NCBI GenBank assembly: GCA_900208305.1
Contig: OAPG01000022.1
Coordinates: 124,001-188,000 of the forward strand
Length of the DNA stretch: 64,000 nt
Direction: 5' to 3'
Source of the DNA: Melanopsichium pennsylvanicum
Taxonomy: Eukaryota > Basidiomycota > Ustilaginomycetes > Ustilaginales
Of this stretch, positions 41,312-46,760 are shown in pieces. Both the position numbers and the translations under genes were made by a program. Position 1 is the stretch's first letter. The number at the start of each line of letters is the position of its first letter. The notes below the pieces were generated by a model that saw only the letters and a list, made by a program, of their open reading frames with translations, searched no databases and was not told where the DNA came from.

Positions 41312-44300
41312 TCATCCTGTGAGCAGCGAACCCAGCTGCGCCTGCAGTATGATCGGCAGATATGCCACGCAGAAGACAGGCACTGTTGCTGAACCGAACA
41401 GCTTCCAATGTGCCATCAGCTTTTCCATCTCCACTTCCAGCGTTTTCCCGGGTAAGGACTGCCAGATCCAGGCCCAAAAGACGGGATTGAAAAGCACAAC
41501 TACCGGAGTTCGCAGCGAGCTCAGGATCGAAACACGAGTGGATGCGGAAGGTGACGATGTGGCTCGGCTGGAGGCTATCCTGAGTGCCGCGCACGTGAGA
41601 AGAGCTAGTAGGGTTGCTAAGGCAAAGTTGAGTACGCTCAAGACTGCCACCAGCATACCAGCTTGAAGGTAGGCAAATGCAAGGAGCAGTGTGCCAATAC
41701 GGCGTGCTTGCTTGACTGTGCGGCGAGAGCGAAGAATTGGACCTGCGGTCATCGGGAGAGTTATGAATGCCGCCCTCAGCATAGCCACGCGTACTGCCTG
41801 AAGAAATCGGAAAGAGCGAGCGAAAGACTTCAAGTCAGCTGCGCTGTTCAGCATGTTCGAAATCTCCAAATCGAAGTCATGACTTACCCGGTCCCCGTAT
41901 GCTGCTGTTAGTTCTACGAGAAGCCCCGCGTCAAAGTAGAGCAATCCAGCGCCCATGACAACGGTGGCACCTACGCAAGCGAGGGCCGCCACGCACGGCC
42001 TCATCGAGTTTCTCAGCCTGTCCGCGTGCCCGTCTACTGTCGATCTCATCTCCTCCCCGCCGTCGCTCATTGCAAGGTACTTCTGAATCACTTGATGGCG
42101 GTACCAGCCAAGCGTGGGTGCTTCTGGCTGAACATCGCCCTCATCAATGTGTCCCGGCTCGACACTTACCAGCACTGCCACACGTTCCGACTTCGAGATC
42201 TTCTCCTCTCGAAACCAGAGCGCCAAGCCACTGATCGTGAGCGAGATTGACAAGAAGAGCGGAATCAAAATGGCTGTACCGATCGGAACAAAGCGTTTCG
42301 GGTTCAAGAGAAGGTAGAGGAACTGTGAATGATGCAATCTCTCCAGCAAGTTCGACATGGACCGAACAAATGATTCGATCAGCCTACCCATATGGAAGAA
42401 TCCGAAGGGTCCTGTCGCAGGCACAGCATAGAGCGTGATCGCATCGACGTGGTGTCTCTGGAAGAACCCATGCGGGCCACTAGCTTGTCCGGAGATACCG
42501 AATCCGACCTGTCTCAGTGCTGCCCGAACCCCATCTTCAAAATTACCCAGCTCGTACTCCATATCCTGCCTCAAGTGTTTGCCCCATCTCTTTGCTAATC
42601 TTTGCGCTTGCCCCTTGAGGACAGAGTGGTCAGTCTGACCGCCTAAATTCACCGGCATACCGCCAGCAACACTGTCTGCAATTCTCACGATTGTGTTGGT
42701 GACGTCCATGTTCGGTAATTGTCCATCAAACCCTTCGTACTGAACCACGAGCGATGAGAATGAATCCGCCGGATAGTCGATCGATATCGCGTTCCAAACT
42801 TGTGAGCCTCCTGCTGCCACAGGATCCACCTTGAGTCCATCCGAAACACTGCCAAAGTAGGCCGACGACCACGCATGGATGCCTTCTAGATATCCATCGC
42901 TGATGACGAAGATGAGGTCTTTGCTAAGGTGTGCTTGGGTGGAGAGGTACCGAGCGAGGGCAAGGACGGAGGCAACGCCGCGGACGTTGGTGCGGCCGTT
43001 AAGGTCGACATTAGATGCGTTTTCGGCTGAGTGCGCGTCGGGATCATTTTGGCCGGTCCATTGACTGAGCCAGCTCGCGGTGAGGACGATTGCTTCGCGA
43101 CCATCGATGCGCGGAGAGGCGGATCTCGCATACACATTTGTACCTGACAGCGACGAGTCTTTTCCGTTAGAGGCGGCACCAAATTGGTAGTGCTGTCGAT
43201 TCACATCCAAGCCATACGACTGAAGCTCGGAATACACAAAGTCAGCACGCTCTGCGTGGCTTGCGCCACTCAGAAAGGCCACTTTTTCAGAGAGCATGTC
43301 GGCATAAGTGACATCAAAGTAATCCCAGTAGACACGGGCTTGACCGGGCTGAAGAGCGTTCTCGTCGACATATGTGCCTTTAGAAACTGGCGATCGAGGA
43401 TGTGGAACGACAAACACCAGCACGAGACCAGCCGCGACCAAAAGCGGTCGAAGCAAGAGTGAGAAACGCCCAAGAAGTGCCAGAATCTTACGCCGGGTGG
43501 CAATGCGACGTCGGAACGCATCGCGGACCTTTGACTCCTGGGCTACTTTGGCTTCACGAGCTTCTACCAAACGTTGCAGAGCTTCCTCGCGTTCCAAGGC
43601 TGCATCTTCTTCCGTCACTGAAGCAATATCGGAGTCTGTATCCTGCGATGCGTTCCGGCCCGAAAAGCGCTCGTCGGTTGAGAGCAAATTGTTCACTTCA
43701 TCTTCCTCGACATCGCTTTGCGCAGACACGATCGTCTCTTTCGATGTCGCCGGACCTGGAAGAGTGAAGCAGCCCAGCACGAGCACAATGTGGCATGCCA
43801 GCAAGATCTGCGAGGAAGACTCAGTAGAAGGAAAGACGTTCCAGCACCACTCCAGCGCCATTGGCACCACGAGCTTGACGACCACTGGGAGCTTGGAGAA
43901 CCACAGCAGCAAGGGCACTTGGTGAAAGTACCACGAGTAGAACTGGTAATGCAAGCTCCGCGAGCAAAGAATGCCGATGACGTTGGAGGTGAATGCACAG
44001 CACAGAATGGCGACTTTCCCGGAACGGGTGAGGTTGTGCGACTCGATGGAGAGATTCTGCAGAATCCACTGCGGCCCGAGCGAGCCGATTGGCGTCCACA
44101 CAAAGAGAGCAAAGAAAGCGAGCAGCAGAAGGTGGGCGGCGAGCAGACCCTTTGCAAAATGCTGAGACAAGAATGTGGCTTCGGGGAGGAACCGCCAGTT
44201 GACAGTCCAAACGTAAAGGAAGGCTCTAGAGAAGTCGAACGCACGAGTGAGGTATGCGTGGAGACTGTGTTGCGTGAATGGCAGTGAGATCAGAGCCTGC

Positions 44301-44953
44301 ACAACGACTGCGATTGAGACATAAGAAATCGCGCCTTTGAGACCGAGGTGGACGAACGCTGCTGTAGCGATACCGGGCAGGAAGAGGAGAACGTTCATCT
44401 TGATTCCCAGCCCGACGCTGAAGAGCGAGGCTGAAATCCTCCAACTCGCCTTGAGAGCCGAGTATAGCGCGAGATAGACGAAGAAGATGGCGATGGGGTC
44501 GTTGAACATGCGAAGCAAAAAGATCGAGGAGATTCTTCTGGACAATATCAACGGCAAGATAGTGATAGGTGGCATGCCGGCTTGGCGATAAAGAAGCGCA
44601 ATGACGAGGTTGTTCGCCGTCAAAAGCCCTGCAAAGACATTCTGTGCAGGCAGAATGTTCTTGCCGCCGGCCGTGAGCCAGTGGAAAAAGGAATAAACGT
44701 AGAGATGGGCGGCGGGGTAGACGCAAGGCCCACTGCCCCCTTCGGGGTCGAGTCTGTTGTAGTCGCGTTCCCCATCGAGGAAGAGGGCAGCTTGGCCGAC
44801 ATACGTCTGGAAATCGATTTCTGTGAAGTCGATACGTTGTATGACGGCTTGCGAAATTGCTGCTGATGTAACGATCAAAGCAGGGAGGGCGAAATTGTAG
44901 CCGTAGTCGTCGAGGCAGACTCGGCGCAGCCAAGTGACCGCTTGGGAAGGCAT
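41312..44953 (-). CDS. alg3-gaa1: ALG3-GAA1 fusion: Dol-P-Man alpha-1,3-mannosyltransferase joined to GPI-transamidase subunit Gaa1
   Basis: One frame runs from ATG 44953 to the stop at 41312. Residues about 1-405 are a whole ALG3 (FTEIDFQTYVGQ, VYPAAHLYVYS, LRMFNDPIAIFFVYLALYS, SVGLGIKMNVLLFLPG, SRSLHYQFYSWYFHQVPLL), the ER enzyme adding the sixth mannose to Man5GlcNAc2-PP-dolichol. An acidic then coiled linker (about 406-490) contains no methionine. Residues from about 495 to the end are a whole GAA1: first membrane segment (LLVAAGLVLVFVV), YVDENALQPGQA near 527, luminal domain (VVQYEGFDGQLPNMDVTNTI, RSMSNLLERLHHSQFLYLLL) and C-terminal membrane segments. Gaa1 is part of the GPI transamidase in the same membrane. 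Bases 41798-41887 (90 nt) look like an intron that preserves frame; spliced (44953-41888 plus 41797-41312) the product is 1,183 residues, unspliced 1,213. No splice signal or stop separates the two halves. Confidence 0.9.
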   Translation of the reverse strand: MPSQAVTWLRRVCLDDYGYNFALPALIVTSAAISQAVIQRIDFTEIDFQTYVGQAALFLDGERDYNRLDPEGGSGPCVYPAAHLYVYSFFHWLTAGGKNILPAQNVFAGLLTANNLVIALLYRQAGMPPITILPLILSRRISSIFLLRMFNDPIAIFFVYLALYSALKASWRISASLFSVGLGIKMNVLLFLPGIATAAFVHLGLKGAISYVSIAVVVQALISLPFTQHSLHAYLTRAFDFSRAFLYVWTVNWRFLPEATFLSQHFAKGLLAAHLLLLAFFALFVWTPIGSLGPQWILQNLSIESHNLTRSGKVAILCCAFTSNVIGILCSRSLHYQFYSWYFHQVPLLLWFSKLPVVVKLVVPMALEWCWNVFPSTESSSQILLACHIVLVLGCFTLPGPATSKETIVSAQSDVEEDEVNNLLSTDERFSGRNASQDTDSDIASVTEEDAALEREEALQRLVEAREAKVAQESKVRDAFRRRIATRRKILALLGRFSLLLRPLLVAAGLVLVFVVPHPRSPVSKGTYVDENALQPGQARVYWDYFDVTYADMLSEKVAFLSGASHAERADFVYSELQSYGLDVNRQHYQFGAASNGKDSSLSGTNVYARSASPRIDGREAIVLTASWLSQWTGQNDPDAHSAENASNVDLNGRTNVRGVASVLALARYLSTQAHLSKDLIFVISDGYLEGIHAWSSAYFGSVSDGLKVDPVAAGGSQVWNAISIDYPADSFSSLVVQYEGFDGQLPNMDVTNTIVRIADSVAGGMPVNLGGQTDHSVLKGQAQRLAKRWGKHLRQDMEYELGNFEDGVRAALRQVGFGISGQASGPHGFFQRHHVDAITLYAVPATGPFGFFHMGRLIESFVRSMSNLLERLHHSQFLYLLLNPKRFVPIGTAILIPLFLSISLTISGLALWFREEKISKSERVAVLVSVEPGHIDEGDVQPEAPTLGWYRHQVIQKYLAMSDGGEEMRSTVDGHADRLRNSMRPCVAALACVGATVVMGAGLLYFDAGLLVELTAAYGDRVSHDFDLEISNMLNSAADLKSFARSFRFLQAVRVAMLRAAFITLPMTAGPILRSRRTVKQARRIGTLLLAFAYLQAGMLVAVLSVLNFALATLLALLTCAALRIASSRATSSPSASTRVSILSSLRTPVVVLFNPVFWAWIWQSLPGKTLEVEMEKLMAHWKLFGSATVPVFCVAYLPIILQAQLGSLLTG
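41798..41887 (-). other. Stop-free, frame-preserving 90-nt intron inside the GAA1 part
   Basis: On the minus strand it starts GTAAGT, has a GCTGAC branch-like site about 42 bases before its end, a pyrimidine-rich tail (TCTTTCCGATTTCTTCAG), and length 90 with no in-frame stop. If retained it inserts 30 polar residues (VSHDFDLEISN...SFRFLQ) after residue 1022, next to a membrane segment; if removed it joins YGDR to AVRVAML. Confidence 0.7.
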
Positions 44954-45431: not shown

Positions 45432-46760
45432 TTATGCCTCCTTCGCTCTGAGCAGCGACTCGTCACCGGCACGTATCCTGTATAGCAGCTTTTCGCCACT
45501 TCCGTGCCCTGCTCCTGCTCTTCTCTCGTACTCTAGCGCAAACAGCGCGTCCCGTAGAGTGACTTTGAGCCTTGCCTGCCTCTCCTCTTCCTCCTTCACC
45601 GCCTGACGGGCGGCTACATCTCCCCATGCGCCCGCAGAGCCTGGATTGGACGCACTGCCTCCCAAATTGGCGTCATTGGGACCAGCTGAGCTCCAATTGG
45701 ACACAGCTGGTTGCGGCGCAAATTTTGGCTTGGGAAGACGACTTGGTGTCTCTTCACCATCAGCATCCGCTTTGGCCTTCTTCCCACCTAGCGGGCTGAA
45801 TGTGCTCGGAAAAGAAGATCCACCAGAAAGCCACGAGTATTTTGACGAACCACCGCCCAAATTTCGCATAGCAGTGCTGTCTGCGAGCCTCTTGCGCACG
45901 TCTTCTGACATGTTTCTCGCCGCGACACCGGGTCCAATCTTCTTGGGTCTCTTTCTGCCGTCGCCCTTGGGAGTTCCTGTGCCGTCATCCATGTCCATAT
46001 CGTCGCCTCCGTATCCAGCTGCGAGGGCGGATGACTCTTCGTCTCGGGCTAGTCGCTCGCGACGTTTACGCGCCTCTTCACCTCTCTCGGCTTTTTCGAG
46101 CGCCGCGAGCTGCTTGACGGGATCGCTGAGAATTTTTTCGTGGTACATGGGTTGGGATGTCGAAGGGTACGAGGGCGGCGGATGTTGGTGGGATGACCAG
46201 CTTCGATGTCTCGACGAAGCGATCATACTCTCGAGCACGTTCTTCAAGCGTGTTCTGGCTGCTAGCGAGAGGTAATTGAGGACAGCAGCGTCGACACTTA
46301 GGCCGTGTTCTTGAGCGAGGGTGTGGACCTTGTATGCGAGAGGATAAACTTGCAAGAAGAGCCCGTCATCTTCGGGTTGCGCCACATTGTCGCGTGAGTT
46401 TTGAGACTGTTCCATGCGTTCTCGCAATTGTATTGCTTCTTCTTCAGCTTGCAAGTCGACACCCGACGCACCCATTACATCGACCAGGCTGTCGAAGTTA
46501 TCCTTTTGTTCTGGAATTGTAGCGCCAGCTTTGCCACTGGTGGATGCTTGCGTCGTGCCGGCATCGATGGCGCTGGAAGTGCCGTTCATTGATGAAGCCG
46601 CTGCGGTTGCATTGGCGTGCTCGGCTTTGAAACGCTTGGCTAATGGTACTGAAGAGTTGGAACGTTCCCGGCCACCTTGTGCCTTGGAAGCCTGTACTGA
46701 CACATCATTGGTCGGAGTCTGAGGTGCGTTTGGACTGCTTGGTGCTGGCGAAGAGACCAT
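45432..46760 (-). CDS. taf4: TFIID subunit TAF4
   Basis: The protein has 442 residues. After a Ser/Ala/Pro-rich start comes the TAF4 histone-fold region at about 130-190 (LFLQVYPLAYKVHTLAQEHG, LNYLSLAARTRLKNVLESMI), which pairs with TAF12. A charged helix follows (DPVKQLAALEKAERGEEARK, RRERLARDEES), then the C-terminal conserved block near 398-435 (VTLRDALFALEYERR ... EKLLYRI), equivalent to the human TAF4 end (NLRDLIFCLENER). Role: scaffold of TFIID for promoter recognition by RNA polymerase II. The ATG at 46760 has G at -3 and G at +4. Further upstream the frame is open but starts with a non-ATG codon. TAF4-type length is short compared with human (1,085) but like other fungi. Confidence 0.9.
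   Translation of the reverse strand: MVSSPAPSSPNAPQTPTNDVSVQASKAQGGRERSNSSVPLAKRFKAEHANATAAASSMNGTSSAIDAGTTQASTSGKAGATIPEQKDNFDSLVDVMGASGVDLQAEEEAIQLRERMEQSQNSRDNVAQPEDDGLFLQVYPLAYKVHTLAQEHGLSVDAAVLNYLSLAARTRLKNVLESMIASSRHRSWSSHQHPPPSYPSTSQPMYHEKILSDPVKQLAALEKAERGEEARKRRERLARDEESSALAAGYGGDDMDMDDGTGTPKGDGRKRPKKIGPGVAARNMSEDVRKRLADSTAMRNLGGGSSKYSWLSGGSSFPSTFSPLGGKKAKADADGEETPSRLPKPKFAPQPAVSNWSSAGPNDANLGGSASNPGSAGAWGDVAARQAVKEEEERQARLKVTLRDALFALEYERRAGAGHGSGEKLLYRIRAGDESLLRAKEA

Follow-up and report, generated by a model that had tools for sequence, protein, structure and literature searches.

Based on an analysis of a 64,000-nucleotide stretch of the Melanopsichium pennsylvanicum genome (contig OAPG01000022.1, positions 124,001 to 188,000; hereafter the window), we propose that this smut fungus makes the mannosyltransferase ALG3 and the glycosylphosphatidylinositol (GPI) transamidase subunit GAA1 as a real, functional single-chain fusion, a reading to which we assign a probability of roughly 0.85. 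The gene occupies 41312..44953 on the minus strand and runs from ATG to TGA over 1213 codons, unspliced, plus the stop; with one intron removed, its product is probably 1183 amino acids long. The fusion reading is supported at the level of sequence, as every test run here leaves it standing.

One frame through two complete domains

The initial annotation had placed both proteins in a single open reading frame, and this is borne out: the frame is open from 44953 to 41312 and holds both Pfam domains at near full length. The Pfam scan places ALG3 (PF05208) at residues 25-381 (E 9.6e-128, profile positions 2-358 of 358, 427 bits versus a curated cut-off of 23.6) and Gaa1 (PF04114) at residues 603-1204 (E 4.5e-77, profile positions 1-495 of 497, 260.7 bits versus a cut-off of 28.6), i.e. 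each as a whole domain. Separate intact copies elsewhere, which had been named as a check, were not found in the 21.1-Mb assembly, where each family gives one match and both matches fall in the fusion gene. The pattern is that of a gene fusion, with a frame unbroken through the join and no separate copy of either partner.

The best database match, P0002 from M. pennsylvanicum, agrees with the window protein at every residue except 1023-1052, which it lacks. Exactly these 30 residues are encoded by a 90-nucleotide in-frame intron (GTAAGT...TTTCTTCAG) at 41798..41887 on the minus strand, read 41887-41798, the 30 codons of which carry no stop and keep the frame. At the intron position in the alignment, P0015 and P0016 diverge from the GAA1 sequence, terminating no more than about 20 residues on; P0004 contains an extra stretch. 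All three deviations fit an unspliced intron at a common position. The earlier description of a single uninterrupted coding frame accordingly stands for the ALG3-GAA1 join and fails within the GAA1 half, where the intron had been read as coding.

No usable separate GAA1 start found at the junction

As had been claimed, neither a stop nor a methionine interrupts the junction: the window frame is open, with no in-frame Met between M365 and M553. Inspection of ATGs, reading frames and splice sites revealed no usable separate GAA1 start in the junction. ATGs in the other frames within gene nucleotides 1140-1680 open frames of at most 83 codons, and a start at M553 would yield a GAA1 without its first membrane helix. 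The accompanying statement that the junction has no consensus donor requires amendment, since one weak GTAAG is present at 43491, the sole GTRNG donor-like site in the same scanned stretch, while its consequence, that a separate GAA1 start is unavailable, still holds. Splicing from this site to an acceptor 105 nucleotides on would cost GAA1 its conserved first membrane helix, encoded by the 35 codons removed in frame, without introducing an ATG, so that the site leaves the conclusion unchanged. These findings on ATGs, frames and splice sites led us to reject an internal GAA1 start. In addition, the linker between the two halves reads as coding by codon usage, scoring +0.128 bits per codon in frame when excluded from training. 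By comparison, the two remaining sense frames score -0.405 and -0.192, and the antisense frames lie between -0.013 and -0.205.

Architecture of the two halves and the linker

The ALG3 half (residues 1-402; 43748..44953, minus strand) is a GT58-type Dol-P-Man:Man5GlcNAc2-PP-Dol mannosyltransferase, with the Pfam match at 25-381, and displays the ALG3 fold with a luminal acidic residue in a TEID motif. This residue, Asp47 (44813..44815, minus strand), does not vary across the aligned rows (23 of 23) and is, judging from the GT-C fold, the probable catalytic base; the yeast chain 9s6r has an Asn at this position in the alignment. The GAA1 half (residues 489-1213 unspliced; 41315..43489, minus strand) shows the architecture of GAA1, i.e. 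an N-terminal membrane helix followed by an M28-like luminal domain and a C-terminal bundle of membrane helices. An AlphaFold2 model (mean predicted local distance difference test score, pLDDT, 88.7) contains the expected folds in both halves, with residues 8-400 matching yeast ALG3 and residues 485-1181 matching human GPAA1, joined by a weak stretch (pLDDT <50, residues 410-447) and a long helix (448-515). A hydropathy plot tried for the membrane segments returned only 12 strong segments and was too coarse, and the model was used instead.

The linker (residues 403-488; 43490..43747, minus strand) begins as an acidic, weakly predicted stretch and becomes basic and helical where it enters the first GAA1 membrane helix (TM1), its length ranging from 66 to 112 residues across the 23 fused rows. 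Within it lies an acidic di-leucine-like motif, E-V-N-N-L-L (residues 419-424; 43682..43699, minus strand), the pattern of which, E-[VI]-x-x-L-[LV], recurs in 22 of 23 rows; because P0001 and P0002 represent one gene, this corresponds to 21 of 22 distinct genes. The pattern is missing from the Violaceomyces protein P0022. We take the hexamer to resemble an acidic di-leucine sorting motif. Mean pairwise identity reaches 0.669 in the 18 residues preceding TM1 (P0002 is excluded as a duplicate from all linker identity figures). Homology of the whole linker to the N-terminal tails found on standalone GAA1s was considered and rejected: when 10 fused rows were aligned with 10 standalone ones, common sequence began only at the basic block immediately preceding TM1. 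Many standalone tails are acidic upstream of this point, yet they cannot be aligned with the linker.

Compared to the known systems, the fused chain deviates at both ends facing the join. Yeast Alg3 (GT58; PDB 9s6r) has a free C-terminus, where the fused chain runs on into GAA1. In contrast to GAA1/GPAA1 (PDB 7w72, human, and 9ub7), the fused GAA1 has no start Met of its own, and its N-terminal tail is replaced by ALG3 and the linker. A KKxx or KxKxx C-terminus is present in 17 of the 120 listed standalone ALG3s, versus about 1% expected from the lysine content, a signal that the fused ALG3 cannot use in this form. Loss of this di-lysine signal as a price of fusion was nonetheless set aside as weak, since only these 17 carry it.

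Distribution and origin of the fusion

The same join recurs in other smut genomes, as had been suggested for verification: 22 of 42 database homologues (P0002-P0023) hold both domains, and the 13 of these 22 with a species given all come from smuts or smut-related yeasts, i.e. Melanopsichium, Ustilago trichophora, Sporisorium scitamineum, S. reilianum, S. graminicola, Kalmanozyma, Pseudozyma hubeiensis, Moesziomyces, U. loliicola, Testicularia, P. flocculosa, Violaceomyces and Thecaphora. By taxonomy look-up, Melanopsichium and Testicularia (Ustilaginales), Violaceomyces (Violaceomycetales) and Thecaphora (Urocystidales) belong to the Ustilaginomycetes, in which we presume the remaining fused genera also to fall. 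The other 20 homologues comprise 18 with Gaa1 and without ALG3, and two (P0041 and P0043) with ALG3 and without Gaa1.

The relatives examined outside the Ustilaginomycetes have ALG3 and GAA1 as two separate proteins. Among the matches listed, both occur as standalone proteins in Tilletia, Sympodiomycopsis and Malassezia, and a standalone ALG3 in Meira; these four genera belong to the Exobasidiomycetes or Malasseziomycetes. The two genes are located on different contigs in four of four outgroups, Tilletia maclaganii, Sympodiomycopsis kandeliae, Parajaminaea phylloscopi and Malassezia yamatoensis, a count taken over species in which both ALG3 and GAA1 form single-member, single-contig clusters. 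This suggests that ALG3 and GAA1 probably became neighbours first and fused afterwards.

Trees were computed for each part, leaving out P0001, which is the same gene as P0002. In the GAA1-part tree (64 rows: 22 fused and 42 standalone chosen among the matches listed), the fused rows form one side of a branch with a Shimodaira-Hasegawa-like approximate likelihood ratio (SH-aLRT) support of 99 and adjoin Malassezia (support 82); the branches leading to Tilletiaria, Ceraceosorus and Thecaphora are long here, and P0019 fills just 42% of the columns. In the ALG3-part tree (59 rows: 22 fused and 37 of the 120 listed standalone ALG3s), the fused rows group together with P0044 (support 94). The nearest standalone relatives of the fused halves are in both trees those of Malassezia, Tilletia and Microstromatales, which have two proteins where the Ustilaginomycetes have one chain. 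A single fusion event in the stem of the Ustilaginomycetes would fit these data best, given the separate proteins in Tilletia, Sympodiomycopsis and Malassezia.

Record names and neighbouring genes

The NCBI names of the 13 species-assigned fused proteins refer to ALG3 in eight cases and read 'hypothetical' or 'uncharacterized' in five. Six GAA1 proteins of Malassezia and Tilletia (P0169, P0175, P0184, P0185, P0032 and P0033) are also named as ALG3 mannosyltransferase; the Pfam scan detects Gaa1 and no ALG3 domain in P0169 and P0184 (Malassezia) and in P0032 (Tilletia), and the name has possibly been transferred from fused records. M. yamatoensis has, in addition, a true ALG3, P0048. The GAA1 proteins of Malassezia cuniculi, M. 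yamatoensis and M. psittaci (P0179, P0184 and P0188) also bear methyltransferase domains (residues 742-905 in P0184), which reflect a further fusion or, alternatively, the merging of gene models.

A TAF4 gene (PF05236, E 3.4e-34) is present at 45432-46760 on the minus strand, 478 nucleotides upstream of the fusion gene and on the same strand. The Ustilago loliicola model P0019 carries a TAF4 part in addition to ALG3-GAA1; together with the neighbour in the window, this suggests that the gene order is shared and that the P0019 model is probably a false merge.

In the M. pennsylvanicum assembly, the GPI8, GPI16, PIG-U and PIG-S families are represented by one locus each, on contigs C16, C6, C5 and C3, respectively. 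A search with the ALG9/ALG12-type mannosyltransferase family matched four contigs, and its results were left aside.

Proposed mechanism

We propose that the gene product is one bifunctional membrane protein of the endoplasmic reticulum, inserted as one chain. In an ancestor of the Ustilaginomycetes, ALG3 and GAA1 would have come to lie head to tail, whereupon the ALG3 stop and the GAA1 start codons would have been lost, and the frame through the join would have been kept open ever since. The N-terminal ALG3 half, a lumen-facing alpha-1,3-mannosyltransferase, would mannosylate Man5GlcNAc2-PP-dolichol for assembly of the N-glycan precursor. From there, a cytosolic linker some 85 residues long would lead to GAA1, the GPI transamidase subunit with eight membrane helices, which would join GPI8, GPI16, GAB1/PIG-U and GPI17/PIG-S, each encoded separately in the genome. 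Translation as one chain, activity of both halves and assembly of the GAA1 half into the transamidase are inferred.

In the accessible text on the human GPI transamidase structure (PMC9098846), GPAA1 spans the membrane with eight helices and the tags face the cytosol, so that the N-terminus of GPAA1 should be cytosolic too. Joining a cytosolic C-terminus to a cytosolic N-terminus is topologically permitted, and functional coupling is therefore not needed to explain the fusion. The same text gives the human subunits as 1:1, from which each transamidase would carry one ALG3. It is possible, albeit doubtful, that ALG3 has become a permanent sixth part of the smut GPI transamidase, the linker motif and helix holding it beside the GPI-attachment machine such that completion of the N-glycan precursor and GPI anchoring would have their stoichiometry, location and turnover in common. 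The likelihoods we attach to the single-chain fusion, to this permanent association and to the cleavage discussed below overlap, and are not meant to total one.

Alternative explanations

Several observations weigh against a functional single chain. A linker Met is present in five of the 23 fused rows (P0012, P0013, P0018, P0019 and P0023). The relatives were compared at the join as protein sequences, and both trees are 'quick' trees. P0044, a protein of 414 amino acids, groups within the fused ALG3s, has no GAA1 and breaks off within the ALG3 domain. It probably represents an incomplete prediction, or alternatively a rare unfused relative. Ustilago maydis does not appear among the names of the matches listed. 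Finally, mean pairwise identity in linker residues 403-472 is 0.345, versus 0.673 in ALG3 and 0.724 in the luminal part of GAA1, and a stretch of such low conservation might serve as a spacer and nothing more, or might be cut.

The latter would be the case if the gene encoded a polyprotein, made as one chain and then cleaved in the cytosolic linker into free ALG3 and free GAA1, with coupling at the level of expression only. Such a scheme agrees with the conservation and order of the linker, which are the lowest in the chain, and with the separate occurrence of the two proteins in other fungi. We nevertheless regard it as unlikely, as no cleavage motif common to the 23 linkers is apparent by eye (no motif library was searched), and as the 18 residues before TM1 and the six-residue motif are kept more strictly than a disposable spacer needs. 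A separate GAA1 might also be produced through an internal promoter or a spliced start, the long frame then being used only in part. The donor-like GTAAG at 43491, several CAG/TAG acceptors in the linker, and the linker Met, at one position common to P0012 and P0019 alone among the five rows, would favor this. However, the other 18 of 23 rows lack a linker Met, the window has no in-frame ATG from M365 to M553, and both the GTAAG splice and an M553 start would sacrifice TM1, rendering a separate product highly improbable. An artefact, in which an assembly or sequencing error or an annotation merge joined neighbouring genes in frame, is nearly refuted. Probable merged models do exist among the matches (P0019 with its TAF4 part, P0026 with WD repeats and Gaa1, and P0041 and P0043 with ALG3 and unrelated domains), but the raw DNA frame is open independently of any gene model, and the join recurs in 22 proteins, with the linker motif shared by nearly all rows; an annotation merge is rejected in view of the open raw frame and this recurrence.

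Implications

In keeping with the initial annotation, which knew of no description of an ALG3-GAA1 fusion, none was found in searches of an open-access PMC library, subscription papers and preprints being outside the search, and the fusion goes unmentioned in the accessible text of PMC12244721, PMC6881057, PMC4973528, PMC12786357, PMC9098846 and PMC9003368. A table in PMC4973528, in the part available, marks Alg3 as present in U. maydis.

In conclusion, should ALG3 and GAA1 remain on one chain, an entire class of fungi, to which the model U. maydis probably belongs by its phylogenetic position, ties N-glycan assembly physically to GPI anchoring. According to the accessible text of PMC12786357, GAA1 is essential in S. 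cerevisiae and Colletotrichum graminicola. An 'alg3' deletion in a fusion-bearing fungus would also remove GAA1, and its phenotype would consequently be misread.

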